Assembly: GCF_002787055.1 (NCBI RefSeq) | Contig: NZ_CP024808.1 | Coordinates: 956,328-1,020,327 of the forward strand | Direction of reading: 5' to 3' | DNA: 64,000 bases | Source: Candidatus Nitrosotenuis aquarius | Lineage (GTDB): Archaea; Thermoproteota; Nitrososphaeria; Nitrososphaerales; Nitrosopumilaceae | In this document: positions 8,132 to 34,411 of the stretch, piece after piece | How the letters are laid out: every line of letters begins with the position of its first letter | How positions within the stretch are numbered: position 1 is the stretch's first letter | Translations under genes and position numbers: made by a program | The notes under the pieces: model-generated | Database searches by the model: none | What the model was told of the DNA's origin: nothing | Seen by the model: only the letters and a program-made list of their open reading frames with translations

Positions 8132-9031
8132 TTAGGTCTTTCTTAGTTCAGCAAACGAAGAATCTAAAACATGTTTTCGCACAACTCTGACGCACTGGTG
8201 CATTAGAGTTTTGATGTCTTCAGAAAGATCTCCCAGTATTTTTACGACTAGGCCGCAATCTTCTGGCAAAAACGAACAGCCACTTGTCAGATCAGAATTT
8301 TCCAAGACAGAATTGATCTCGTCTGAGATTTTTTGCAGTTGTTCCTTTTTTGTTATAATGTACATGGTTCCAAAAACGGACTTGGTTCCAAGAATTCCCA
8401 TTCGGCTGAATTCATGCTTTGGATCAAGCTTGAGAGAATCCATGAACAAGGTCTTGCCATTTTTGTTTTTTGCAACCATCTTCAGATAGCATAAATCATA
8501 GTCAAATAACTCACCCATTGCCACACGTCCAGGCATTACTATCTCTGAATACACTATAGTAGAATCGGCTCCAGCCGTCATTTGCACCCGCTGAAAATAC
8601 CTGGATTTTTTGTACGGAATTATCTGGTCTGGTAAAAACTCTAGATACGCATTATCGCCTACTGTGATGTCTATGAATTGGGCGGCATAGTTTGACTCCA
8701 TTTTATAGATTCTTGTGGCTCCTTGCGTAGTCACGTTTGCAATTGCATTGTTTTGTACCGATATCTGGATGTGATGCCTGTCTCCCTGAAGAATTCCGCC
8801 AGACGAAGACATCAAGAACAAATAAGCCATGGCGGGATTTGCCACATCATAGTGCAGAGCCTTTTGCGTCAGAAGCGGCGCCTTGGAATATTGATGCACT
8901 ATTATTGTCTTGTTTTTTGCCTCATCCATTGCAAGTGTGATTTGCAGGTTGCCGACTTTTTCAATGTCAGAATTATTTTGCAAATACTGGGCAAATTCTT
9001 CCGGTATCTTTTCTGAATTTATCTGAATCAT
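8132..9031 (-). CDS. ureD: Urease accessory protein UreD
   Basis: A 299-residue UreD (UreH in some nomenclatures), the scaffold that binds apo-urease and channels nickel from UreG. Characteristic stretches are MSSSGGILQGDRHHIQISV, TTQGATRIYKM and LEFLPDQIIPYKKSRYFQ. It is the last gene of the leftward ureE-ureF-ureG-ureD operon; its start overlaps the end of ureG by 4 bp, indicating translational coupling. Confidence 0.95.
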   Translation of the reverse strand: MIQINSEKIPEEFAQYLQNNSDIEKVGNLQITLAMDEAKNKTIIVHQYSKAPLLTQKALHYDVANPAMAYLFLMSSSGGILQGDRHHIQISVQNNAIANVTTQGATRIYKMESNYAAQFIDITVGDNAYLEFLPDQIIPYKKSRYFQRVQMTAGADSTIVYSEIVMPGRVAMGELFDYDLCYLKMVAKNKNGKTLFMDSLKLDPKHEFSRMGILGTKSVFGTMYIITKKEQLQKISDEINSVLENSDLTSGCSFLPEDCGLVVKILGDLSEDIKTLMHQCVRVVRKHVLDSSFAELRKT

Positions 9032-9678
9032 TTCAGTTGCGCCTTTGGAGGCTCCTCAAAGAGCAGATCTTCAACGATATGGTCAGATACTTTTTCTATT
9101 CCGGTTTGGTCCATGCAGTTTACAAATACGTGCGGCCTGCCCTTGCGGATTGTTTTGGCGTCCCTGTCCATTACTGAGAGGTCTGCATTGACAAGCGGCG
9201 CAAGATCGATTTTGTTTATTACAAGAAGATCGCATGACTCTATCCCAAGGCCTCCCTTTCTTGGATACTTGTCGCCTCCAGAGACATCAACGATGTAAAT
9301 GAAATAGTCCGCCAGTGCAGGACTAAACGTAGTCATCACGTTATCGCCCCCGCTTTCAAGAATTATCAGGTCTAGCTCAGGATGGTTTTGCTCAATTTCC
9401 TCAATTACTGCCAAATTCATCGACGGATCTTCGCGTATTGCTGTGTGAGGGCATCCCCCGGTGGCAATTCCAATGACCATGTTTTCAGGAAGCAATCCCT
9501 GTGTTGTTGCCAGATTTTTTCTTATTCTGTCGGCATCTTCCTTTGATATTACATCGTTTGATATGACGCAGATCCTATAGCCACGCCTTGCAAGCACTGG
9601 AACAATTTTCTCAATTAGCATGCTTTTGCCAGAGCCGACGGGGCCTCCAATTCCTATTCGCGGGATTCTTTTTGCCAT
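9028..9678 (-). CDS. ureG: Urease accessory GTPase UreG
   Basis: A SIMIBI-class GTPase of about 216 residues that delivers Ni2+ to urease. Visible motifs are P-loop GGPVGSGKS, the nickel-binding CPH in GGCPHTAIREDPS, the switch region LESGGDNVMTTFSP and the base-recognition motif NKIDL. ATG at 9678 gives a typical start; an in-frame GTG at 9687 would create a 4-bp GTGA overlap with ureF and is an alternative. It lies in the ureEFGD operon. Confidence 0.96.
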   Translation of the reverse strand: MAKRIPRIGIGGPVGSGKSMLIEKIVPVLARRGYRICVISNDVISKEDADRIRKNLATTQGLLPENMVIGIATGGCPHTAIREDPSMNLAVIEEIEQNHPELDLIILESGGDNVMTTFSPALADYFIYIVDVSGGDKYPRKGGLGIESCDLLVINKIDLAPLVNADLSVMDRDAKTIRKGRPHVFVNCMDQTGIEKVSDHIVEDLLFEEPPKAQLK

Positions 9679-9683
9679 GGTTT

Positions 9684-10382
9684 TCACGTTATGAACATTT
9701 TTGCTTCCATTTTTTCATGGTGCATCTGCAAAATGTCTGCTTGTGGCAAGAACTGCCAAATTCGGTCTGGGGACTTTGAGATGTATTTTCTTACTTGGTC
9801 ACTGATGACTGGTTTGAGTGAGTTGATTATTTGCTGGCTTTGTATGTGCTGTATGATTCCAAGACGCAATGCAGCCCCGACCATACTTGTTGCAAACCCA
9901 TAAAACAACATAAGACATGCGTCTTGTTTTGAGATCCCAAAAAGTTGGGCCGCAATGGAAAAGGCAACAGGATATGTGCCAGGGGTTTTTGACTGTAGAA
10001 TCTTTTCATGATATTCCGTGGCAAATGAATCATCAACAAGGGATAAAACGCACTTGATTAGCTGTTTGCCAGATCGCACGGATGCCTCCCGTTGTTCTCT
10101 TACCAGCTTGGTTTTGTAGATTGTGTCATCAATCTGTATTATCTCATCTAGGCTTTTAGTGGCAGCAAAGTCATATGCATTTGCAAGCGCCACGCAGTCA
10201 GCAGGTCCTACTTGCTGTACATAATACATCTCGATTAGATTTTGCACATCAGTTGGGCCGGTTATCATTTTTTGTCGATGCATTGCCTCAAGCCCATTTG
10301 ACATGGTGTAAAGGCCGGCCGGAAAAAACGAGTCCGACAGCTGCATTATACTAAGGCTTGAAAAATCAGTGTCCATGTACAT
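9684..10382 (-). CDS. ureF: Urease accessory protein UreF
   Basis: A 232-residue all-helical UreF, which together with UreD and UreG forms the nickel-insertion complex. Recognisable segments are LSDSFFPAGLYTMSNGLE near the N-terminus and GYFATSMVGAALRLG-like residues (GFATSMVGAALRLG) near the C-terminal third. It overlaps ureE by 17 bp and abuts ureG. Met 3 (MDTDFSS) is an equally possible start. Confidence 0.94.
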   Translation of the reverse strand: MYMDTDFSSLSIMQLSDSFFPAGLYTMSNGLEAMHRQKMITGPTDVQNLIEMYYVQQVGPADCVALANAYDFAATKSLDEIIQIDDTIYKTKLVREQREASVRSGKQLIKCVLSLVDDSFATEYHEKILQSKTPGTYPVAFSIAAQLFGISKQDACLMLFYGFATSMVGAALRLGIIQHIQSQQIINSLKPVISDQVRKYISKSPDRIWQFLPQADILQMHHEKMEAKMFIT

Positions 10383-10869
10383 CCATGGATTTGTGAGGCT
10401 GAAAAATTTTTTCTTCCTGTACTAGCTCGATTTTGTCTGCCAGATCCCGGAATGCTGAGCGAAACATGTCAATTTCTGCCTCAGAGTGAATTGGAATCGA
10501 TATAGAGTCGTTTCCAAGCGAGACAGGCCTGTGCAGATTACCTATGATGTGCCCAAGTAAAATGAGGGATTTTGGCTCAAGGCCTGCAAATCTGACTGTG
10601 ATCGTAGGCTCTGGGACCTGCCGTATCAGAACTTTGACGTCATCCCCATACAGGACATCCCCGTGTGTCATTTTTTTGTCATATTCGATGTTTATTCCGA
10701 TTGCCGTGCCGTCGGATGCTTTTTGCTTTAGTCTTGTTTTTTCAAGATCATGGCGTAAAACATGTATGGTTTTGTAATTTTCATTATGTGTGTTGGACTC
10801 GAATTCTTTTGCAATAGCGGGATCATCAAAAATATTTCCAATTATTCTTTGAACTTTGAGCAACAGCAA
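10366..10869 (-). CDS. ureE: Urease accessory nickel chaperone UreE
   Basis: A 167-residue UreE. The N-terminal peptide-binding-like domain is followed by the metal-binding domain with the signature LGHIIGNLHRPV, whose first His is the conserved interfacial nickel ligand. The C-terminal tail contains a few His (QPHKSMDVHGH), shorter than the poly-His tails of some bacteria. First gene of the leftward accessory operon, transcribed away from ureA across a 66-bp gap. Confidence 0.94.
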   Translation of the reverse strand: MLLLKVQRIIGNIFDDPAIAKEFESNTHNENYKTIHVLRHDLEKTRLKQKASDGTAIGINIEYDKKMTHGDVLYGDDVKVLIRQVPEPTITVRFAGLEPKSLILLGHIIGNLHRPVSLGNDSISIPIHSEAEIDMFRSAFRDLADKIELVQEEKIFQPHKSMDVHGH

Positions 10870-10935: not shown

Positions 10936-11238
10936 ATGTTTTTGACTCCAAGAGAGATTGACAAGTTACACATTTTTTTGGCCGCAGAACTTGCGCGCAA
11001 AAGAAAAGCAAGAGGCCTCAAGCTTAATCACCCAGAAGCAGTGGCACTAATTACTGATCATATACTAGAGGGGGCAAGGGACGGCAAGTCAGTTGCAGAC
11101 TTGATGAGCTCCGGAAAAAAAGTCCTAACAAGAAATGATGTTTTACCCGAAGTTCCCGAAATAATTCACACTATTCAAGTCGAGGCCACATTTGATGATG
11201 GAACGAAGCTAGTCACAGTTCACGACCCTATTGTGTAA
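10936..11238 (+). CDS. ureA: Urease gamma subunit
   Basis: A 100-residue UreA of canonical length, colinear with bacterial gamma subunits: [41 protein letters not shown], then [19 protein letters not shown] and the terminal VHDPI. It forms the (UreABC)3-type holoenzyme that hydrolyses urea to ammonia and carbamate in the cytoplasm. The ureB start lies 4 bp after its stop. Confidence 0.97.
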
Positions 11239-11242
11239 TGCC

Positions 11243-11605
11243 ATGATACCAGGACAGTACTTTATCTCTGAGAAGCCAATAATTGCAAACCAGGGAAAAA
11301 AGACAGTAACAATATCGGTCAAAAATACAGGAGACAGGCCAATCCAAGTCGGCTCTCATACTCATTTTTTTGAGTCAAACAAGGCACTCGAGTTTGCGCG
11401 AGAGGAATCATATGGATTTCATCTCAACATTGCCGCAGGCACATCAGTTCGATTTGAGCCTGGCGAGACAAAAAAAGTCGAGCTGACCGAATATGGCGGA
11501 AAAAGAGTCGTCTTTGGGTTCAGCGGGCTGGTAAATGGGCCGCTATCGGAAAAAAAATCAGAGGCGATGCAAAAGGCCAAAAAGGCCGGGTTTAGAGGCG
11601 CATGA
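11243..11605 (+). CDS. ureB: Urease beta subunit
   Basis: A 120-residue Ure[14 protein letters not shown] start, [20 protein letters not shown] core, and [22 protein letters not shown] at 11243 gives the standard IPG start; a TTG at 11231 inside ureA is rejected. Its last codons overlap the ureC ATG by 4 bp (ATGA), so beta and alpha subunits are translationally coupled. Confidence 0.96.
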
Positions 11606-13314
11606 CGCTAGAGATTCCGCGGAAAAAATACGTTGATCTTTTTGGTCCCACAACAGGAGACAAAGTCAGGCTTGGAGACACTGATCTAATCATAGAAATT
11701 GAAAAAGACTTGATTGGATATGGGGATGAGGCCGTCTTTGGCGGAGGAAAAAGCATCAGGGACGGTTCGGCACAAGCAAGTGGTGTGATTTACGACGACT
11801 CGGTGGATCTGGTCATTACAAACGCAATCATCATGGATCCAGTTCTTGGAATAATCAAGGCAGACATTGGAATCAAGGACGGAAAGATTTTCAAAATAGG
11901 TAAAGCCGGCAATCCAAACACCACAGACGGAGTTGATATCATCATATCGTCAAACACGGAGATAATTTCTGGCGAGCACTTGATCTGCACGCCGGGAGTA
12001 ATAGACACGCATATCCATTTTATTTCTCCACAGCAGGCAATAGACGCAATTTGCGGAGGCACCACCACCATGATAGGAGGCGGGACGGGGCCTGCAGACG
12101 GAACCAATGCCACCACATGCACACCAGGAAAATGGAACATGCACAGGATGATACAGGCAACAGAAGAATTCCCAATCAATTTTGGCTTTCTTGGAAAGGG
12201 AAACGACTCTCAAGAAGAATCCCTAATTGATCAGATCAGAGAAGGCGCATGTGGCCTCAAGTTGCACGAAGACTGGGGTACTACGCCGGCAACAATAGAT
12301 GCCGCGCTACGAGTAGCAGACAAGACTGATACCCAGATTGCCATACACACAGACACGCTAAACGAGTGCGGTTATGTGGATGATACCATTGCAGCAATTG
12401 CCGGAAGGGCAATCCATACATACCACACAGAGGGCGCCGGAGGAGGCCATGCCCCAGACATAATGAAAATAGCAAGCGAGCCAAACGTCCTGCCCTCATC
12501 TACAAACCCGACTAGGCCATATACGGTAAACACACTTGATGAGCACCTAGACATGATGATGGTTTGCCACCACCTCAACTCGTCTGTTCCAGAGGACGTC
12601 TCGTTTGCAGAGTCAAGAATTCGCGCAGAGACAATTGCCGCAGAAGACATCCTTCATGATGTTGGGGCAATAAGCATGATGTCATCAGACAGCCAGGCAA
12701 TGGGAAGAGTTGGCGAGACGACCACCAGATGCTGGCAAAGCGCAGACAAGATGAAGAAAAGTTTTGGCAGACACAAGGACGAAACTGCAGAGAATGACAA
12801 TTTCAGAGTAAAGCGCTACTTGGCAAAAATAACAATAAACCCGGCAATAACTCACGGAATCTCTCAACATGTCGGCTCGCTAGAGCCCGGCAAAATTGCG
12901 GACATTGTGGTGTGGTCGCCGCAGTTTTTTGGCGCAAAACCCAAAATGATAATCAAGGGAGGTATGATTGCGTATTCTTTGATGGGAGATCCAAACGCCT
13001 CAATTCCCACAACAGAGCCAATCTACTACAGGCCCATGTTTGGGTCCCTGGGACGGGCAAAGCAGGCAATCTCGTTTGTGTTTACGTCAAGACTTGCACT
13101 AGAAAACGGCATCGAGAGCAAGCTTGGGATAACAAAAAAGTTTCTTGTCGTAAAGAACTGCCGTAACATTGGGAAAAAAGACATGGTCCTCAATGACGCC
13201 ACGCCAAAAATCGAGATCGACCCAGAGACATACCAAGTAAAAGTTGACGGCAATCTAGCAACAACAAAGCCTGCCACAAGCGTTTCGCTTGCAAGGCTAT
13301 ACAACTTGTTCTGA
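11602..13314 (+). CDS. ureC: Urease alpha (catalytic) subunit
   Basis: A 570-residue catalytic subunit, normal length. All metal and active-site elements are visible: HIH in DTHIHFISP, the carbamylated Lys in GLKLHEDWG, His residues in AIHTDTLNE and [15 protein letters not shown], the flap with VCHHLN, and the Asp ligand in [10 protein letters not shown]. The enzyme holds a dinuclear Ni centre assembled by UreDEFG. It is the end of the ureABC operon and converges with the leftward 4-hydroxybutyryl-CoA dehydratase gene, with the stop codons 1 bp apart. Confidence 0.98.
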
Positions 13315-20548: not shown

Positions 20549-22638
20549 GACAGTCCGATTCGGACATCTAGGACTTTGCAGCCTTTTCCTTGTTCCATTA
20601 CAAGTACTGGGTTCATGTCAAGCTCCTTGATTTCCGGAAAGTCAATTAACAACGCAGACAGTCTTTGTATTAGCTCTGATAGCTTTTTCTTGTCTGCTGG
20701 CTTTTCTCCGCGGACTCCCTCTAGTAATTTTTTAGTTCTGATTGAATCAATCATGTCGTCTGCTTCCTTGTTTGTTACTGGCGCCAGTCTGAATGTGACA
20801 TCTTTTAGAACCTCTACGTAGATTCCTCCCATTCCAAGCATTATGACCTGGCCAAATCCAGGCTCTTGCTTTGAGCCAATGATGAGCTCTTTGCCGCCCT
20901 TGACCATTTCCTGGACGAGTACGCCCTTGATCTGCGCGTTCTTGTTGTATTTTTTGGCGTTTTTGATTATTACATCAAATGCATCTGTTACTGCCTGCTC
21001 GCTTGCAAGGCCTACCTTGACTCCTCCCGCATCGGACTTGTGGATTATTTGGGGCGATGCAATCTTCATTACAACTGGAAATCCAATTTTTTTGGCTGCC
21101 TTGACCGCCTCTGCCGGTGTTTTTGCCAGGATGCTTTGCGGTAGTGGGAATCCATACGCACGCAGTACTTCTTGGCCTTCCTCTTCTAGGAGGTTTGTTC
21201 TCTTTTGTTTTCGAACAGAGTCAAAGACCTTTTTTGCGGCTGCCTTTTTGGCTGCAAACTTGGTAATTGTTCCTTCGGTGGAGCTGACCCACTTTGAGAA
21301 TCGAAGCATTGCCCGTAGTGCGCGAATTGCGCCCTCTGCATACGTATAGTATGGAACGCCGCCATCCGCCAGAATTTGCCTGTTTGTGATTCCCTCGTCT
21401 AGGCCCATCAAAGACGCAAGCATCGTCTTTTTGTATTTTTTAGACATTGATACTATGACTTCGGCCAGCTTGTCATAGTTTAGAGTGGCAGAAGGAGTAC
21501 ACATGGCAATAACAGAGCCGACGTTTTTGTGCGCCAAGACATTGTCCAAAACTCCGCTGAATCGGTTATAGTCAGCATCGCCCACTATGTCGACTGGATT
21601 GCGTGAGCTTCCCCACGGAGGAATCACTGCGTTGATTTTTGGCCTAATGTCCTCAATTGAGGCCATCTTGATTCCATATTTGGAGCAGGCATCAGTGGAG
21701 ATGATTGCAGGACCTCCTGCGTTTGACACTATAACCAAATCGCCTTTTAGCGGCAGTGGTTGCTTTGAGAATGCCACTGCGTAATCGAATAGTTCTTCCA
21801 TGGTGTCAACACGAATTGCGCCAGACTGGTTTAGAACAGCATCATAGATTTCATCAGAGCCCATCAGTGCACCAGTATGCGACATTGCTGCCTTTGCTCC
21901 CTCTGGGCTTCTGCCAGACTTTAGAATGATCACTGGCTTTTTGTGTTTTTTAGTGATAGTTTTGCAAACCTTGAGGAACTCTTGGCCGTTTCCCATGTCT
22001 TCTAGATACATGACAATTACCTTGGTCTGCTTGTGTTCTGCAAGCATCTTGAGAAGATCAATTTCGTTCAGATCAGCCTTGTTTCCAACGCTGATTACTG
22101 CAGAAAATCCGATTCCCTGCGCGCTTGCGTCCTCAACTAGTGCTGCGCATATTGCGCCGCTTTGCGAGACCAGCGCAATTTGGCCAGACTTTGGCGTAAC
22201 TTTGAGAAAAGTGGAATTCATCATTGTATTTGGGTCCAAGTTCATGACTCCAAGGCAGTTGGGGCCAATCATGCGGATGCCGTATTTTTTTACTATTGTC
22301 TTTAGCTGTTCTTCTAGCTTTTTGCCTTCCTCGTTTACCTCCTTGAATCCAGCTGTGATGACTATGACTCCCTTAATTTTTTTCTTGCCGCATTCTTCCA
22401 GTACTGCTGGCACGACATCATTTTTTGTAACAACAATTGCAAGATCGATTGGGTCTTTCACATCAAGGACTGTCTTGTATGCCTTCATGTCAAATACAAC
22501 GTCACGTGTTGGAGAAATTGGGTAAATCTTGCCCTTGTATCCTTTCATAATATTTGATGTTATAGTACGGCCGACACTTCCCTCCTTGTCGGATGCACCA
22601 ATAATTGCAATAGACTTTGGCTCCAAAAGAGAAGTCAT
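20545..22638 (-). CDS. ADP-forming acyl-CoA synthetase, candidate 4-hydroxybutyrate-CoA ligase
   Basis: A 697-residue single-chain ADP-forming acyl-CoA synthetase. Domain order: CoA-binding domain (SIAIIGASDKEGSVGRTI), succinyl-CoA-ligase-like domain (LVSQSGAICAALVEDA), phospho-His loop (AAMSHTGALMGSDE), and a C-terminal ATP-grasp (GFPVVMKIASPQIIHKSDAG ... MDMNPV-like LDMNPVLVM). In Nitrosopumilus such enzymes activate 3-hydroxypropionate and 4-hydroxybutyrate with one ATP-to-ADP, the economical step of the thaumarchaeal cycle. Proximity to 4-hydroxybutyryl-CoA dehydratase favours the 4-HB enzyme, but the sequence alone does not decide. A TATA-like stretch lies about 27 bp upstream. Confidence 0.87.
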   Translation of the reverse strand: MTSLLEPKSIAIIGASDKEGSVGRTITSNIMKGYKGKIYPISPTRDVVFDMKAYKTVLDVKDPIDLAIVVTKNDVVPAVLEECGKKKIKGVIVITAGFKEVNEEGKKLEEQLKTIVKKYGIRMIGPNCLGVMNLDPNTMMNSTFLKVTPKSGQIALVSQSGAICAALVEDASAQGIGFSAVISVGNKADLNEIDLLKMLAEHKQTKVIVMYLEDMGNGQEFLKVCKTITKKHKKPVIILKSGRSPEGAKAAMSHTGALMGSDEIYDAVLNQSGAIRVDTMEELFDYAVAFSKQPLPLKGDLVIVSNAGGPAIISTDACSKYGIKMASIEDIRPKINAVIPPWGSSRNPVDIVGDADYNRFSGVLDNVLAHKNVGSVIAMCTPSATLNYDKLAEVIVSMSKKYKKTMLASLMGLDEGITNRQILADGGVPYYTYAEGAIRALRAMLRFSKWVSSTEGTITKFAAKKAAAKKVFDSVRKQKRTNLLEEEGQEVLRAYGFPLPQSILAKTPAEAVKAAKKIGFPVVMKIASPQIIHKSDAGGVKVGLASEQAVTDAFDVIIKNAKKYNKNAQIKGVLVQEMVKGGKELIIGSKQEPGFGQVIMLGMGGIYVEVLKDVTFRLAPVTNKEADDMIDSIRTKKLLEGVRGEKPADKKKLSELIQRLSALLIDFPEIKELDMNPVLVMEQGKGCKVLDVRIGLS

Positions 22639-23539: not shown

Positions 23540-24307
23540 CTAGAGGAATTGCAGGTCAAGGCCAACAAAATTTCCGCTTGATATGACATCATACAAAATG
23601 TCAATTCCTATTACAACACTAATAGAGCCAACCACATAGCGTAAAATTTTGTTAATTTTACCAGAGTTGCGCGCCAGCGAAAACGGCAATCCTATTACAC
23701 TACTCACCAACATCATCCCAACAATAGAGCCTGCGCCAAACATTATCACAAGTGACAGGATGTTTTCCAGATTATTCAGTGTCGAGAGCGCCAATACAAC
23801 CAGGCTTCCGCTGCCGGCAAGGCCATGTATGCATCCAATGATGTATGATTTGTGCCCGTGTGTGTGGGAGTTGTCGTGCGAGTGAGGGTGCGTGTGCACC
23901 AGATTGTCATGGGCATGAGGATGGATGTGTTTTTGTCCAATCAAGGCTTTTTTGCGGTATGTAAAAACGCCAAGTGCCACAAGCATCAAGCCCACCCCAA
24001 TCTCAAAGCTGCCAAAGACCTTTTCTGGAATGCTCATCGAGAACACAAAGATCAAAAGGCTCACTAGGACAAGTGCGGATGTGTGTCCTGCCCCCCACAG
24101 TGCCCCCAGGATAGAACTTTTTACGGCAGATGCGCCAATTTGATAAAATCTCGAAGGCGAGCCTTTCTGCAATAGCTTGGAGTTCTGCGTTGCCACTGCA
24201 ACCACATGATCAGGCTCAAATGCATGAGATAGCCCTATCACAAATCCGGCAACAAGCGTAAAGAAGGGCGTTGCAGTTGGTAGTTGTTTGACTAGTTCTT
24301 CTATCAT
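23540..24307 (-). CDS. Nickel/cobalt permease, NiCoT/UreH type
   Basis: A 255-residue, six- to seven-helix permease. The signature HAFEPDHV (H-x4-D-H) in the first helix region is the metal-binding motif of NiCoT/HupE-UreH-type Ni2+ transporters. A central cytoplasmic loop is extremely His-rich (HIHPHAHDN, HTHPHSHDN, HTHGHK). Other conserved segments are GAGHTSALVLV and GCIHGLAGSGSLVVLAL. It would supply Ni2+ for urease and possibly for the ureohydrolase encoded two genes upstream in the same operon (9-bp gap to the UreA-like gene). Confidence 0.88.
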   Translation of the reverse strand: MIEELVKQLPTATPFFTLVAGFVIGLSHAFEPDHVVAVATQNSKLLQKGSPSRFYQIGASAVKSSILGALWGAGHTSALVLVSLLIFVFSMSIPEKVFGSFEIGVGLMLVALGVFTYRKKALIGQKHIHPHAHDNLVHTHPHSHDNSHTHGHKSYIIGCIHGLAGSGSLVVLALSTLNNLENILSLVIMFGAGSIVGMMLVSSVIGLPFSLARNSGKINKILRYVVGSISVVIGIDILYDVISSGNFVGLDLQFL

Positions 24308-26068: not shown

Positions 26069-26320
26069 ATGACCAGGGTCAGCACAAAAGAAGACATTGA
26101 AAGAGAATCAAAGCGAGTGATTTCTGCCCTATATGGAGATGTGGCCGGTTTTCGAGTCAATGAGACATTCCAAATTCCTGAGAAAGGACCCAGAGAGGCA
26201 TGGGACGTTCAAGTAAATTTCATGCTAAACGGTCTAAAATACACAGTGGATCTTGAAATACAGGAAAAGGATGGTCAAGTAACCAATGCTAGGCTACTAG
26301 ATACAATGACTCCACTTTAA
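26069..26320 (+). CDS. Conserved hypothetical small protein
   Basis: An 83-residue alpha/beta protein with a helical start (TKEDIERESKRVISALYGD) then beta-rich segments, no Cys or membrane helix. A TATA-like ATTTTTATACATG lies about 25-30 bp upstream, so the promoter is well placed. It overlaps the 3' end of the convergent gene by 4 bp. Function unknown. Confidence 0.6.
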   Translation: MTRVSTKEDIERESKRVISALYGDVAGFRVNETFQIPEKGPREAWDVQVNFMLNGLKYTVDLEIQEKDGQVTNARLLDTMTPL

Positions 26321-26880
26321 TTTTTTTTACTTGTAAAATCCAGATTGCTTGAAATGTTTGACAGAGTCAGAATTTCCCTTGCTGCCTTGATTTTATTGGA
26401 CAGCTCATTAAGATACACATCGGCAAATTTCTCAAATGTCGGCACCGGGTATTTTCCCTTGTTGTTAGCCTTGAATTTCGCATATTCTTCCTGAAGCCAA
26501 CCGAAATCAGCCTCTTTTAGCCGAATTACGTGATTTTGGGAGTCAAGTTTTGACTCAAAAAGATTGGCCAGAAAATAGCTGGTAAATCTGCTAAATCCCT
26601 TGACATTGTATTTTTTCTCATAGTCCTCGCTCATCTCTTTGTAATTCTCCCTCAGCCAATCTGAAACATCCAGTCGTATTGTAATGGAGTTGTATCGCCC
26701 AGACAGATCTAGTCGGAGGTTGTGCAAGTTTACAGAATAATATCCACGTTTAACTTCGTTCATCAGTATTATCAGCGTGCTTGGTAGAAACATTCCGGGA
26801 TAATACACATTAGTTATGTTTTGCAGTCTTGTAAGAATGTCAGGCTTTAATCCAATTGTAGAATATCCTTGACTTGGCAC
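26317..26880 (-). CDS. Hypothetical protein with RHH-like N-terminus
   Basis: A 187-residue protein whose first 45 residues (GYSTIGLKPDILTRLQNIT) resemble a ribbon-helix-helix strand and first helix, followed by two related helical segments (DWLRENYKEMSEDYEKKYN-like and LQEEYAKFKANNKGKYPVP-like) that look like internal repeats. It may be a DNA-binding protein, but this rests on pattern only. The start codon is GTG at 26880; a later ATG is not better placed. Confidence 0.55.
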   Translation of the reverse strand: MPSQGYSTIGLKPDILTRLQNITNVYYPGMFLPSTLIILMNEVKRGYYSVNLHNLRLDLSGRYNSITIRLDVSDWLRENYKEMSEDYEKKYNVKGFSRFTSYFLANLFESKLDSQNHVIRLKEADFGWLQEEYAKFKANNKGKYPVPTFEKFADVYLNELSNKIKAAREILTLSNISSNLDFTSKKN

Positions 26881-28259: not shown

Positions 28260-29801
28260 CTAGATTGCAGTAGATTTGGTACCGTCTCCGGCCAGCTTAA
28301 AGTGCTTGAGGTCTTCGCCAGATATCAAGTCTTCTTCTGGAGGCACATAGTCGTTGACATCGTGCCTTTCCTTGCCGGGCCATTTTTTCTGAGTTGCCAG
28401 CGCCACTATGATGAAGAGCGCAAACGATATTGGCGGAGGTATCATGGTATCTAGTCCTGCCCATTCCAGAGGAACAACAAAGAACATCAACATTCTTAGC
28501 GCAGAGCCGACAATAAGCGACGTTACGGCGGCAGGCATGTTTGCCTTTTTCCAGAACAGTCCAAGTGTGAGTGGGGCAAGTGCTCCGGCAAACACAATGT
28601 CAAATGCAAGAATAAGATAGATTCCAGGCTGGGGCATAATATAGCCAAGAGTGAGCGCAGATATCATGACTGGAATCACTGCTAGTCTGGTTATCCATAA
28701 TAATTTAGAATCATTCCAAGCCTCCTTGCCTAGCCACCTTCGCCTGATTATTCTTTGGAGCAGGTTTCTAGATATCACACTAGATACTGCAAGTAGTCCG
28801 CCGTTTGCAGTAGACATGGATGCGCCAAGGACTCCCATCAAAAGCGCCGCACCTATTGCAAACGGCATGTGGTTGAGTGCCAAGCTCGGCAGTGCATGGT
28901 ACGGATCCTCAAGTCCCGGCAAAAAGTGAATTGCCACTATACCAAGCATGCCGACAGGCAATACCGTAAAGAATGTCAGTCCTGCTCCCATGAACGCACC
29001 ACGTCGAGCCGTCTTTGGATCTCTTGCCGCAAAGACTCTTTCCATAAAGTCCAGTGCAACAATGTCGCCCAGCCCCAAGGCAAGAATTCCTGCCCAATTG
29101 ATCAGAGCGCCGTTTGCCACATCAAACAACCCAGATAGATCAAGATGTGACGGTGGAGAGCTAGCTAGTATTGTGTCAAATGGAACTCCAGAGAATCCTC
29201 CTGCAAAGAACAAAAATGCCGCCCAGAACGAGCCAATTGCAAGATATATCTGGAAAATATCAGTATATGCAGAGGCAAATAGCCCTCCCGCAATTGTATA
29301 TGTCATTACTACTAGGGCCGCAATTATTATTCCCCACACAAATGGTATGCCCAGCGTAGTTTCCAAGATAAAGCCGCTTGCGGCAAAATTTCCTGCAACC
29401 AATATGGTGAAGCTGATTATCATCAATACGCCAGACATTCCTTCTGCGGCGTTTCCGTATCGTCTAAAATAATAGTCAGGCAATGTAAACATGGACATTT
29501 TGTTGAGCTTTTTTCCATAGACTAGGCCAGTCATCAAAAGACAGATTCCCAGCCCTATTGGAATTACTGCACCGCCCCAGAAACCAAACTGGAAGATTAG
29601 CGCCACGGATCCTAGTGACGAGTTTCCATCAACGGACTGCGCCACAAACATGGTTCCAACCATTAACAGCGGTAGGCTTTTTCCTGCAACGATCAGCCTT
29701 TTTCCACTTTTTTGAACTAGTCTGTACGTGAGGCTGCCAATAACCAGCGAAAATACAAGAAACGCAATTACGGCAATCCCATATCCCCCAAGCTCAACCA
29801 T
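28260..29801 (-). CDS. Sodium:solute symporter family transporter, candidate urea uptake
   Basis: A 513-residue SSS-family permease with about 13 membrane helices (LeuT fold): YGIAVIAFLVFSLVIGSLTY, the VAQSVDGNSSLGSVALI segment of helix 2 with the usual unwound region, TIAGGLFASAYTDIFQIYLA of helix 5, and GVLGASMSTANGGLLAVSS of helix 8, matching the Na+-site Ser/Thr motif. Thaumarchaeal urease users often encode an SSS-type urea transporter (DUR3-like), which makes urea a candidate substrate; proline, acetate or other solutes cannot be excluded. A TATA-like ATATTTATATAATTT lies about 28 bp upstream. Confidence 0.85.
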   Translation of the reverse strand: MVELGGYGIAVIAFLVFSLVIGSLTYRLVQKSGKRLIVAGKSLPLLMVGTMFVAQSVDGNSSLGSVALIFQFGFWGGAVIPIGLGICLLMTGLVYGKKLNKMSMFTLPDYYFRRYGNAAEGMSGVLMIISFTILVAGNFAASGFILETTLGIPFVWGIIIAALVVMTYTIAGGLFASAYTDIFQIYLAIGSFWAAFLFFAGGFSGVPFDTILASSPPSHLDLSGLFDVANGALINWAGILALGLGDIVALDFMERVFAARDPKTARRGAFMGAGLTFFTVLPVGMLGIVAIHFLPGLEDPYHALPSLALNHMPFAIGAALLMGVLGASMSTANGGLLAVSSVISRNLLQRIIRRRWLGKEAWNDSKLLWITRLAVIPVMISALTLGYIMPQPGIYLILAFDIVFAGALAPLTLGLFWKKANMPAAVTSLIVGSALRMLMFFVVPLEWAGLDTMIPPPISFALFIIVALATQKKWPGKERHDVNDYVPPEEDLISGEDLKHFKLAGDGTKSTAI

Positions 29802-30090
29802 CGCAAAGTTATGATTGAAAAATTATATAAATATTGAAAAAATCAAGTATTATACGTATTACGATTCCAAAACAATATAAGAAATTCATATTTTTTGGGA
29901 AAAAAAATAATTATTTCCAAAAACTTACGTACTATACATTTTACCAGAACCATGCCAGCAAAATAATCGAATCGATCAGCTACAAGACATCAATGTTAGT
30001 CTGTTTTGCAAAAAGATCAGAAAATGATTTGTTAAGATCTGATCATATCGCGGTATAAGATTTAATAATTTAACGAGTTTTCTTTTGAGG

Positions 30091-31779
30091 ATGAAGTATC
30101 CAGAACTGCTCAATCATGATGTAGCGCGAGTCGAAGAGTCTAGAAAATTGAATTTGGTTGTAGGCGGAATAATTCTGGACGTGATCAGAACCAGTTTTGG
30201 GCCTCGAGGCATGGACAAGGTCTACATCGATATTCTAGGCGACGACACATGCACAAGGCACGGCGGAGCCCTTCTAAGAAAGGTCGATCTCAAGCTTCCA
30301 GCTGCCAAAGCGATCATCGAGGGAGTCAATGCAGTAGACACCCATGTTGGCGATGGGACGATTTCTTCTGCTATCCTCATCGGAATGCTGCTAAGAAAAT
30401 CCGAGGAACTGCTGAAAATGGGAATATCCCCCCCAACAATCATCCGCGGTTATGAAAAAGCCCTGGAATTTGCACTAGACACGCTAGATAAAATCAAGAA
30501 AAAAGAGGACAACCGTGACAAAAAAATCATGCACAGGCTTGTCACCTCGTGTCTTGCAGGAAAGGCAATTGCAGACCTAGTCCCCGAAGACATGCAGATT
30601 GTCGATTTGATTGTGGATGCGGTTTTTAGCATAACAAACTTTCAAAAAAACTCACTAGACGTAGACGACATAAAGATTGAGGAAAAGGCAGGAAACACAA
30701 ACAAAATCCAGCTGGTCAGAGGAACAGTAATCGACAAGACAATTGATGATTCTGCCATGCCGCGCAGCATCGAAAATGCCAAAATTCTCCTGCTAAACGA
30801 GCCACTAGAAATGATGCGCACAAAAACAGATGAGCAAATTCAAATCGACTCCCCCGAGCAGATGGTGCTTTATTTGAATCAGGAAAAAATAGACATACTT
30901 GCCAAGGCAAAAAAAATTGTCAGTTCCGGCGCCAATGTAGTAATATCAAGAAAGGGAATCAATTCCATTGCGCAGGAATATTTCGCAAAGAACGGAGTGA
31001 TCTCACTCCGCAGGGCAAAGATAAACGATCTTTTGTGGCTAGAAAGATCAACTGGGGCAAAGACGTGCAAGAGTGTGGAAGACATTTCACAGGATGAGCT
31101 TGGATTTGCAAAAAGGGTCTATGAGAAAAATGTCGGCGGCGACAAGATGTTGTTCATAGATGGATGCAACGATTCCAAATCCCTGACCATACTTTTGAGG
31201 TGCAGCTCCAAGCGTTATCTTGATGAATTCCACCGTGACACGCTAAACGCAATCTATGTTCTGCGAAATTTTATCGAAAATCCGTTTATTGTCAGGGGAT
31301 GCGGCTCAACTGAAGCAATCATTGCAAACAATGTAAGGAAGCAGAGCGCAACAATAGAAGGGCGAGAGCAAATAGTAATTGAGAAATTCGCAGATGCAAT
31401 AGAGGAGATTCCGATAACGCTTGCAAGAAACGTAGGGATGGATCCCATAGACACACTCACGCAGCTTAGATCAAAATACGCAAACTGCCAAGATGGATCG
31501 CTAAAATGGTACGGAATAGACTCTCAGAACAGAAAGGTCTCAGAAATACCCCCAGGCGAAATTATCGAGACGCTTGCGGTAAAGCAGCAGTTCATCAGAA
31601 CGGGAGTCGAGATAGCCAACATGATACTCAACGTCAACGACATATTCATGAAGGACGAAATTGACAACACTCACTGCCACATTGATGGAACCGTCCATGC
31701 TCACCATGACGGAGGAAAGGCGCACAATCACTTTGAGCAGGAAGGACTAGAACAGCGCCAGATGCACCATTACTACTAA
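30091..31779 (+). CDS. Divergent thermosome-like (group II chaperonin) protein with His-rich tail
   Basis: A 562-residue chaperonin of normal length and domain order: GPRGMDKVYID, then VGDGTISSAILIGMLLRKSEELL, apical domain, and RDTLNAIYVLRNFIENPF in the equatorial C-terminal half. The nucleotide-site motif usually written TNDGATIL reads TRHGGALL, and the usual VPGGGA reads VRGCGS, while the D of GDGT and of RDTLN remains. The C-terminus (NTHCHIDGTVHAHHDGG, KAHNHF, MHHYY) has nine His instead of the usual Gly/Met tail. ATG at 30091 lies about 27 bp after a TATA-like ATTTAATAATTT. Probably a specialised paralogue with altered ATP use and metal binding. Confidence 0.85.
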   Translation: MKYPELLNHDVARVEESRKLNLVVGGIILDVIRTSFGPRGMDKVYIDILGDDTCTRHGGALLRKVDLKLPAAKAIIEGVNAVDTHVGDGTISSAILIGMLLRKSEELLKMGISPPTIIRGYEKALEFALDTLDKIKKKEDNRDKKIMHRLVTSCLAGKAIADLVPEDMQIVDLIVDAVFSITNFQKNSLDVDDIKIEEKAGNTNKIQLVRGTVIDKTIDDSAMPRSIENAKILLLNEPLEMMRTKTDEQIQIDSPEQMVLYLNQEKIDILAKAKKIVSSGANVVISRKGINSIAQEYFAKNGVISLRRAKINDLLWLERSTGAKTCKSVEDISQDELGFAKRVYEKNVGGDKMLFIDGCNDSKSLTILLRCSSKRYLDEFHRDTLNAIYVLRNFIENPFIVRGCGSTEAIIANNVRKQSATIEGREQIVIEKFADAIEEIPITLARNVGMDPIDTLTQLRSKYANCQDGSLKWYGIDSQNRKVSEIPPGEIIETLAVKQQFIRTGVEIANMILNVNDIFMKDEIDNTHCHIDGTVHAHHDGGKAHNHFEQEGLEQRQMHHYY

Positions 31780-32340: not shown

Positions 32341-33276
32341 TTATTTGATTCTAGACAATAACGCCTGGTAAAGAAACGGCAGAATTGTAGTTACCTCGGC
32401 ATGTATTGTGGTTTGCTTTGCGTTTTGTGTAACCTTGCCCCACGAGATTGCCTCTCGGACCAAAGCTCCACTCAGGCTTCCGTCAAACTCCTGGGCAGTG
32501 GTGATGTACACAGCATAATCTAGGCCATCCCTATACTGGTTCCACCACAGGGTGTGGTGTTTTGATATTCCACCGCCCAACATGAGCGAGCCGGATTTTT
32601 TTGCCTTAAAGACAAGCGAAGACAATAGTTCGCTGTCAGATACTACATTTAGCTTAAAGTCTCTGTGCTTTTGCGTAAATAACCAAATCTGGCTGCCCAC
32701 GGCACCGTCTACAATTCCCGGCACTATTACTGGGATGTTGTTTTTGTACGCCCAATAAAGGAACGAGCCTTCGCCAAGATGCTCGCCAATCATTTTAGTA
32801 ATGTCTGCAGTTGACATTTCTCTCTTGCCGGACTTGTAGGCTTCTTCTAGAAACATTTGCATTTTCTCTTCAATTATTGGCCCGTAGCTGTCCATTGGTA
32901 CAAGCACGTTGCCCAGCCTGTGAATGTTTTCTTCCAATAATTTAGAGTCATCCAAGGTAAACGAGCCTTCCAGATAATGCGAAAAGTATCTAGCAATGTC
33001 GTGGTCCAGTGCGCCGCATGTAGTAATAACAACATCAAACATTTTTCTGCGAAGCATGTCAGTAATTATTCCCCGAAGGCCGGTGGACGTGATTGCGGCA
33101 ACAAACGAGAGAAACTTGAGGCAGTCCTTGTCGTTTATCATAGTAGAGAGAATTTCAAGGCCGTCGGCAAGATTTCTTGATTCAAAGCCGCCCGATTCTG
33201 AGAGCTGCCTAAAGATGCTTTGAAGGTCATCATCTTTGTTAATTGAAATGTCCTTTACTTTGCGGTGCTCTTCCAT
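32341..33276 (-). CDS. dys: Deoxyhypusine synthase
   Basis: A 311-residue NAD-dependent enzyme that transfers an aminobutyl group to a Lys of aIF5A. Conserved parts are AAITSTGLRGIITDMLRR, TTCGALDHDIAR, the nucleotide-binding VPGIVDGAVGSQ, and the catalytic Lys in LMLGGGISKHH. The ORF is slightly shorter than the neighbouring paralogue. In some archaea the aminobutyl donor is agmatine, linking hypusination to ureohydrolases. Confidence 0.88.
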   Translation of the reverse strand: MEEHRKVKDISINKDDDLQSIFRQLSESGGFESRNLADGLEILSTMINDKDCLKFLSFVAAITSTGLRGIITDMLRRKMFDVVITTCGALDHDIARYFSHYLEGSFTLDDSKLLEENIHRLGNVLVPMDSYGPIIEEKMQMFLEEAYKSGKREMSTADITKMIGEHLGEGSFLYWAYKNNIPVIVPGIVDGAVGSQIWLFTQKHRDFKLNVVSDSELLSSLVFKAKKSGSLMLGGGISKHHTLWWNQYRDGLDYAVYITTAQEFDGSLSGALVREAISWGKVTQNAKQTTIHAEVTTILPFLYQALLSRIK

Positions 33277-33349
33277 CCATTACCAACTTTGTACACGGTA
33301 TAAATTCTTTGAAAATTTGCCTTTTGCGGATTTTGCATGTCTCTGAGAA

Positions 33350-34411
33350 TTATTTTTTGCTAAAATAAGTCTCGGACAGATCCTTGTAGTATTGGTCTAG
33401 TTTTTTGTACAGTCGTTTTGGCTTGCGGGTTTTCTGCGTGCTTAGTGCATAAAGGCACAGTACAGGAAACGCAATGGTGGCATCCGCATAGACTACAACT
33501 ACGTCCTCATGCGAATCCTTTACTTTGCCCCAGCTCTTTCCCTCTTGTAGCGTGGCGCCGGACAGGCCTCCTGTGTCAGGCCTAGCATCAGTAATTTGAA
33601 TAATGTAATTTTGTCCGCCATGTCCTAGGCCCAATATCTGATCCAAGAGCGGGCCTGTTTGTTGAGCGGTGTTTTTTGGAACACCGCCGCCAATTTCGAC
33701 AATTCCAGCCTTTTTTGAATTGTACAGAATTGCCGCCTGCTCGATTATCTCTCGCACAAAATCCAGCTCAAATGGCTTGTTGGCAAGCCTAAGTGGTGCC
33801 AGATCAAGCGCAAGTGAGGAATCCTTGAGTGTCGAGATGTAAAGCGGCACATCATAATCATATGCAGACACGACGAAGCTTTTCTGCGGGCTCTTGGAAT
33901 GTTCTTTAGAATATTTGCCCATCCAGTTTGCAAATTCCGCAGTGGTGAACGGCTTGTCAAAAAAGTTGTTATCAAACATTTTTTGCACGATTTTGTCTTG
34001 TTTTTTGAGCGTTTCTTCGCCTTTGATGTACACGTCCCTTATTCTGACAATGTCTTTTTCGTATAGAACCATGTCATCGACCTCAAAATGTCCCTGCTTT
34101 ACGGGCAGGTTCCATGCAAAATGGTCCTCGTGGTACAGATTAGAGCCAGTCGATATTATCCAGTCAACAAAGCCTCTTTCGATTAGAGACTTGAAGAGCC
34201 CCCCAAACCCAACTGGCGTCATGGCACCAGCTATAGTAAGGCAGATTGTTGCGTCATCCTCAATCATTTTGCCAAAGAGCTTTGCAGCTTCGCCGAGCTG
34301 TCTTGCATTGTATCCAGAATTGGAATAAATTTCTACAAGATCTTCAATTTTCATGTTTGGGCTTATTTGTACATGAGGAATGTTTTTTCCATGAAAATGA
34401 TGATGGCTCAT
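33350..34411 (-). CDS. Deoxyhypusine synthase-family paralogue
   Basis: A 353-residue homologue of deoxyhypusine synthase, 70 bp upstream of the first copy. It keeps AGAMTPVGFGGLFKSLIERG and the catalytic-region VEIGGGVPKNTAQQTGP with Lys, but differs in DYDVPLYIST and other substrate regions. Such second copies (sometimes called homospermidine-synthase-like or SpeY) may act on small amines rather than aIF5A. Substrate not decidable from the sequence. Confidence 0.82.
   Translation of the reverse strand: MSHHHFHGKNIPHVQISPNMKIEDLVEIYSNSGYNARQLGEAAKLFGKMIEDDATICLTIAGAMTPVGFGGLFKSLIERGFVDWIISTGSNLYHEDHFAWNLPVKQGHFEVDDMVLYEKDIVRIRDVYIKGEETLKKQDKIVQKMFDNNFFDKPFTTAEFANWMGKYSKEHSKSPQKSFVVSAYDYDVPLYISTLKDSSLALDLAPLRLANKPFELDFVREIIEQAAILYNSKKAGIVEIGGGVPKNTAQQTGPLLDQILGLGHGGQNYIIQITDARPDTGGLSGATLQEGKSWGKVKDSHEDVVVVYADATIAFPVLCLYALSTQKTRKPKRLYKKLDQYYKDLSETYFSKK

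Follow-up and report, generated by a model that had tools for sequence, protein, structure and literature searches.

The window, i.e., the whole stretch of 64,000 nt that was analysed, belongs to a closed genome of 1.70 Mb whose relatives are ammonia-oxidizing archaea. It contains two blocks of urease genes and a second group of genes around a chaperonin paralogue with a His-rich tail, designated CPN (Table 1). Near CPN there are also an arginase-family ureohydrolase, designated ARG, a sodium:solute symporter (SSF), a TPR protein, and two conserved proteins labeled c3 and c5, neither of which showed a Pfam match over the cut-off. Besides its ATG start codon, CPN has a possible alternative start upstream, a TTG at position 30085.

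Table 1. Genes and sequence features of the window discussed in the text
Feature	Coordinates	Strand	Remarks
Urease genes UreD, UreG, UreF, UreE	8132-10869	-	Model matches
Urease genes UreA, UreB, UreC	10936-13314	+	Model matches
NicO-like transporter, His-rich loop	23540..24307	-	PF03824, 25.6 bits, just below the cut-off of 27.7
Urease-gamma-like protein, 129 aa	24317..24706	-	PF00547, 39.6 bits; 4-base overlap with ARG
ARG, arginase-family ureohydrolase, 373 aa	24703..25824	-	PF00491, 277 bits; proposed partner or client of CPN
c3, conserved 83-aa protein	26069..26320	+	Relative in 50/72 loci
c5, conserved 187-aa protein	26317..26880	-	Relative in 39/72 loci
SSF, sodium:solute symporter, divergent neighbour of CPN	28260..29801	-	PF00474
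CPN, His-tailed chaperonin paralogue	30091..31779	+	562 aa, ATG start
CPN codon 57, His for the Asp of TNDGATIL	30259..30261	+	Asp in 28/28 canonical rows
CPN codon 386, Asn for the catalytic-helix Asp (Mm-cpn D386)	31246..31248	+	From alignment
CPN His-rich C-terminal tail, residues 524-562	31660..31776	+	Nine His, end QMHHYY, predicted disordered

The initial annotation had described 30091-31779 as chaperonin-like in length and domain order, and this was borne out by a match to PF00118 of 434 bits (cut-off 34.3) over residues 29-521, corresponding to a full-length Cpn60_TCP1 domain. The product passes the cut-offs of NF041082 (471.1 bits, cut-off 450) and NF041083 (468.5 bits, cut-off 400) and misses that of TIGR02339, thermosome_arch (472.9 bits, cut-off 671.1). 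Models for GroEL reached at most 56 bits, versus 473 for the thermosome model, which indicates that CPN is not a group I chaperonin. An AlphaFold2 model built from 27 aligned sequences (pLDDT 80.6, pTM 0.79) shows the three-domain chaperonin fold, including the apical domain; it aligns with Mm-cpn (3ruq_A) over 510 residues at 3.1 A (Z 42.5), and its structural matches to chains of Mm-cpn, KS-1 and CCT have Z values of about 41-43. The host genome contains four further PF00118 genes, all canonical, scoring 604-634 bits compared to the 434 bits of CPN. The gene thus codes for a group II chaperonin paralogue that has a His tail and departs from the usual ATP-site motifs. CPN shares with the archaeal thermosome (PF00118; NF041082/NF041083) the full domain order, the fold and the nucleotide-binding Gly-Pro and GDGT motifs, but it stays below the TIGR02339 cut-off, has other residues in place of the NDG Asp and of the catalytic Asp, carries a His-rich instead of a Gly/Met-type tail, and forms a sister clade of the canonical subunits with a patchy distribution.

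A single scan of named genomes identified 71 loci with CPN relatives, and a relatives search retrieved five orthologues besides the window gene, two of which duplicated loci already obtained. In a quick tree, without bootstrap and with a deep order within the CPN family that is not reliable, a branch with SH-aLRT 99 separated the 69 CPN rows from their sister group of 28 thaumarchaeal thermosomes. These 69 rows exclude seven cut-off orthologues (L033, L059, L067, L069, L072, L073 and L074) and count the identical L010 and L081 both, whereas the duplicate loci L005 and L078 were omitted from the motif alignment. The canonical set comprised 28 rows for the tree and the count of residue losses, and 29 (one partial) for comparing tails and clades. 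Based on record titles and tail type, the CPN rows were assigned to three clades: that of the window (33 rows), a Nitrosotalea-type clade (11 rows) and Nitrososphaerales (25 rows). Spread beyond the class was not borne out: in a sample of 300 genomes from the phylum, a model of the tail matched 8, all of them within the window's own order. No viral relatives of CPN were found in one scan of viral contigs, and a viral origin was discarded on this basis.

Two acidic residues of the ATP site are replaced in CPN. As pointed out previously, TRHGGALL stands in place of TNDGATIL; position 57, thus occupied by His, corresponds to about residue 63 of the T. acidophilum alpha subunit, using the offset of the matched ranges. 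The most telling change, missed by the initial annotation, is nevertheless Asn386, in place of the catalytic-helix Asp; its equivalence to D386 of Mm-cpn is supported by the match of residues 302-461 of PDB chain 3kfb to residues 302-461 of CPN, with equal length. The GCGS segment, also reported as a departure from GGGA, does occur in the window CPN, but its Cys is peculiar to this genome; the aligned relatives contain GGGS, GAGS, GSGS or GGGA in this position, and the Cys was dropped as uninformative. His57 and Asn386 were each present in 33/33 members of the window's clade, and the canonical rows had Asp in both positions in 28/28 cases. Across the family, the residue pairs at 57/386 were H/N (33 rows), D/D (20), S/D, N/D and D/S (5 each) and N/N (1), and on the tree the Asp was lost at least four times at position 57 and at least three times at position 386. 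Within the 27 aligned members, G37, P38 and G40 of GPxG and G87, D88, G89 and T90 of GDGT are invariant, as are other nucleotide-pocket residues besides the P-loop Gly-Pro and the GDGT Asp. Because GPxG and GDGT remain while both Asp are replaced, CPN from the window's clade is expected to bind ATP without hydrolysing it, and passages of one paper (PMC5019054) describe this very behavior, ATP bound and hydrolysis abolished, for the D386A mutant of Mm-cpn. At the level of sequence, the earlier suggestion that CPN lost normal ATP cycling appears well supported, both by the two replacements in the window's clade and by the independent losses elsewhere in the family. Two further family-specific positions close to the ATP site also contain His: H381 is invariant in the 27 aligned members, with E or D in canonical rows, and H85, directly before GDGT, occurs in 30/33 members of the window's clade, with E in canonical rows.

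The nine His attributed to the tail are present in the window CPN, and the AlphaFold2 model has a disordered tail with pLDDT <50 from residue 517. A tail not conserved among relatives had been named beforehand as the contrary outcome; what we observed is that the last ca. 40 residues contain 7-10 His in 69/69 full-length CPN members, compared to 0-1 in canonical thermosomes. Seven of them (H528, H530, H536, H538, H545, H547 and H559), together with G533, G552, Q555 and R556, do not vary among the 27 aligned members, and Y561 and Y562 are nearly invariant. Mean pairwise identity was higher for the tail than for the body in the window's clade (92% and 66%, 33 rows; tail above body in 520/528 pairs), in the Nitrosotalea-type clade (79% and 76%, 11 rows) and in Nitrososphaerales (75% and 57%, 25 rows). 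When the 69 rows were pooled, the tail exceeded the body in only 1642/2346 pairs, because there are two tail types that differ between clades. Among the 400 genomes of the class, a model of the tail alone found chaperonin-sized frames and cut pieces of them, along with two weak matches to short frames. In one member, L153:494-2272 (-), the apical region carries a long insertion with about 15 His in addition to the His-rich tail.

Decay of ATP-site motifs would also be seen in an ordinary thermosome paralogue on its way to losing function. Such a gene would hardly maintain open reading frames across the class, a tail more constrained than the body and H57 plus N386 fixed in 33/33 members, and we consider this explanation highly improbable; the sequences instead indicate that CPN is a monophyletic family of ammonia-oxidizing archaea and not a decaying gene. 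Three HxH pairs plus HH make a typical metal-ligand pattern, and the tail may plausibly bind metal, seven of its His being invariant in the 27 aligned members. The same pattern, and the second His-rich insertion of L153, argue against the tail serving to dock a protein partner instead of acting as a metal ligand. According to this alternative, CPN would be a non-catalytic adaptor subunit in mixed thermosomes, recruiting to the ring either ARG or the urease-gamma-like protein encoded next to it; the four canonical subunits of the host genome could be its ring partners, and the conservation of G533, G552, Q555, R556 and, nearly, Y561 and Y562 would suit a docking role, which we nonetheless judge improbable.

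In the window, the gene overlapping ARG codes for a urease-gamma-like protein that scores far under the NCBIfam cut-offs for urease gamma, unlike the true UreA at 10936. It is unusual for a relative of a urease subunit to go with an arginase-family enzyme, and this protein might connect, as an adaptor, to the nickel-loading proteins of urease. The gene, divergent and second to that of the true UreA, accompanies ARG in many loci. The loop of the NicO-like transporter (23540-24307) is very His-rich (HIHPHAHD...HTHGH). No Rfam hits, guanidine riboswitches included, were obtained at gathering thresholds between positions 22000 and 36000. In the fetched flanks of 72 CPN loci, many on short contigs so that the counts are lower bounds, we found relatives of SSF in 52, of urease-gamma or gamma-like proteins in 51, of c3 in 50, of ARG in 43, of c5 in 39, of UreB and UreC in 30, and of UreF and UreD in 27. 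The gene directly preceding CPN is SSF in many Nitrosopumilaceae loci, and ureD in Nitrosotalea-type and Nitrososphaera loci.

Co-occurrence was examined in 400 genomes of the class, with the tail in 82, strong UreC matches in 140, ARG orthologues in 86 and SSF in 81. Genomes were taken as UreC-positive when the E-value was no higher than about 1e-15 (140 of the 166 with a UreC match) and as ARG-positive after omission of two remote hits, in G032 and G052 (86 of 88). Tail and ARG were found together in 77 genomes, tail only in 5, ARG only in 9 and neither in 309 (phi 0.895); the corresponding counts were 71/11/10/308 with SSF (phi 0.838) and 73/9/67/251 with UreC (phi 0.575), the Fisher p-values of the co-occurrence analysis ignoring kinship and, the genomes being related, overstating independence. 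Considering only the urease-positive genomes within four genera, ARG was present in 24/26 of those with CPN and in 0/41 of those without it. CPN and ARG were on the same contig in 62 genomes, less than 15 kb apart in 62/62; CPN and UreC shared a contig in 42 genomes and were less than 15 kb apart in 33, with distances computed only from the listed UreC matches. On the same basis, UreC lies 2.16 Mb from CPN in G120 and 0.81 Mb in G126, both of them complete genomes. These patterns of presence and linkage indicate that ARG, rather than urease, is the consistent partner of CPN, and that urease is a much poorer fit. The link to nickel enzymes that had been proposed from gene location therefore stands only in part: CPN is in a urease/NicO neighbourhood, and follows ureD in some lineages, but the consistent partner is ARG and not urease, leaving an only indirect link.

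The genomes departing from the pattern mostly correspond to fragmented assemblies. ARG can exist without CPN, because G026 (97% complete) carries ARG with a urease-gamma-type gene next to it, SSF and urease in an 18-kb stretch (L147) and has no CPN, which counts against a chaperonin dedicated to ARG. There are eight other ARG-only genomes, and in the four inspected (L149, L150, L151 and L155) the contigs are short (4.3 to 13.3 kb) or end near the ARG or urease genes. As for the presence of CPN in urease-free organisms, it was discarded as an interpretation: six of the nine tail-bearing genomes without UreC contain UreF (G277, G216, G348, G267, G345 and G366), and the only three that lack both, G191, G244 and G286, are fragmented.

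One competing explanation is that CPN is dedicated to urease, stabilising it or helping to metallate it, as suggested in the literature for a Hsp60 homologue of archaeal urease loci. CPN indeed occurs in urease neighbourhoods, directly after ureEFGD in the Nitrosotalea-type, Nitrososphaera and some Nitrosopumilales loci, and UreC is present in 73/82 tail-bearing genomes and in 9/9 of the single-contig genomes with the tail. We regard it as distinctly unlikely, given that 67/140 UreC-positive genomes lack CPN, that ARG occurs in only 6 of those 67, and that urease is 2.16 and 0.81 Mb away from CPN in G120 and G126, the urease of G120 having its own, different chaperonin. Urease as the sole partner was rejected as the best-fitting reading, considering those 67 genomes and that ARG predicts CPN within genera.

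The passages of Abby et al. (2018, PMC5797428) on urease loci place the Hsp60 homologue in Nitrosocaldus and Nitrososphaerales, report it absent from Nitrosopumilales, and suggest urease stabilisation. In G025, G031, G120 and G154 we found a chaperonin of 516-524 aa between UreC and UreE, with the NDG motif and Asp intact and no His tail. This protein (L139:3210-4784 (-); also in L137, L138 and L141) is very divergent, with 28-30% identity to the thermosome and an intact ATP-site Asp, and it sits on its own long branch (support 100), apart from the CPN family; G154 and G120 carry both. From its place and its taxa, it is probably the Hsp60 of Abby et al. Both that Hsp60 and CPN are chaperonins in or near archaeal urease loci with a possible role with an enzyme, but the former was reported absent from Nitrosopumilales, where CPN occurs, and the presumed Hsp60 has no His tail.

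The host genome contains three genes of the arginase family, including ARG. The best solved relative of ARG is the guanidinobutyrase 3nio (181 bits), followed by two guanidinases (173 and 169 bits); its strongest relatives of solved structure include the guanidinases 7esr/7oi1 (GdmH) and 9fek (N. inopinata). Guanidinases are of the nickel-containing kind, and passages of one study (PMC11410670) define them by Thr105, His222 and Trp313, in N. inopinata numbering. ARG resembles GdmH and the N. inopinata enzyme in belonging to the ureohydrolase superfamily and in the aligned Thr and His, but has Glu (in PGTGEPEP) in place of the required Trp, and its identification as a guanidinase was rejected. 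Given this residue, and that the best solved relative is guanidinobutyrase 3nio, a nickel dependence of ARG is not established. In their passages on this subject, PMC11410670 reports no guanidine-degradation genes for archaeal ammonia oxidizers, and PMC12625717 none for the nitrifier MAGs of its study, while those of PMC10753782 state that most archaeal ammonia oxidizers have two to three copies of speB, treated as agmatinases.

Our best explanation, put forward tentatively and with a probability slightly short of even, is that CPN is a dedicated metal-handling group II chaperonin of the ARG module in ammonia-oxidizing archaea. Its conserved tail, the replaced Asp residues and the co-occurrence and linkage with ARG count in favour, and so do its NicO-like and ureEFGD neighbours, the nickel-containing guanidinases among the strongest solved-structure relatives of ARG, and the lack of any HypA found in the host genome; the position of CPN directly after ureD in several lineages counts against, since it fits urease or a shared nickel supply equally well. 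We infer that the tails would be placed in the folding cavity, as chaperonin architecture should have it. The C-termini of thermosomes lie at the cavity. A similar location is discussed for GroEL in passages of PMC11978752. A ring of CPN tails could thus form a densely packed metal-binding site within the chamber, holding or passing a divalent metal while ARG, the putative client, folds, assembles or gets metallated; from the context the metal would most likely be Ni, with Mn, Zn or Cu also possible. The essential part of CPN would be its conserved tail and not an ATPase cycle, and the protein might work without ATP hydrolysis or on borrowed hydrolysis: binding ATP without hydrolysing it, CPN of the window's clade could form a slow holding cage, or take part, as a non-catalytic subunit, in a ring shared with canonical thermosome subunits. 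A more specific version of this model, which we consider doubtful, is a metal-loading chamber without ATP hydrolysis, in which sixteen subunits would provide more than 100 conserved His lining the cavity where one ureohydrolase folds and receives its metal, the urease-gamma-like protein perhaps linking it, as an adaptor, to the nickel supply; the independent Asp losses would then be parallel steps towards it.

Mycobacterial GroEL1, for which we know of no comparable tie to one enzyme, belongs to group I, whereas CPN belongs to group II, and their tail sequences differ. They are alike in being paralogues with a His-rich tail linked to metal, which in GroEL1 replaces the GGM tail, as described in passages of PMC5904260 and PMC10170517. 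Passages of the same papers predict for GroEL1 a role in metal homeostasis rather than folding, and CPN could similarly be a metal buffer or store that does not fold proteins, with module neighbours that merely share the metal. The repeated loss of ATPase residues alongside a strictly kept His tail, and the nearby NicO-like transporter, agree with such a role, which seems unlikely to us because a general buffer should not track one enzyme so closely, and because both Asp are kept in 20/69 members and the model retains the apical domain. Another comparison is offered by GroES/HspA of Helicobacter pylori, which binds nickel. It is a co-chaperonin, not a cage subunit, and its fold is unrelated to that of CPN; the likeness, in excerpts on this protein, is that of a chaperonin-system protein with C-terminal His in a urease organism. 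In the open-access PMC literature, we found no report of a His-tailed thermosome like CPN or of its link to an arginase-family gene.

The prevailing view is that chaperonins need their ATPase cycle, and the CPN family, with repeated losses of the hydrolytic Asp and a tail more constrained than the body, offers a natural test of chaperonin function without it. Should CPN metallate a single enzyme, it would count as a metallochaperone of the chaperonin type, and a ureohydrolase module so far uncharacterised, found in archaea that are among the most abundant, would gain a function; this would bear on which organic nitrogen compounds ammonia-oxidizing archaea can turn into urea and ammonia.

Beyond CPN, at positions 32341-34411 (-), the window contains two adjacent genes of the deoxyhypusine synthase family, the second of which passes the homospermidine biosynthesis model and begins with a short His-rich stretch, MSHHHFHG.
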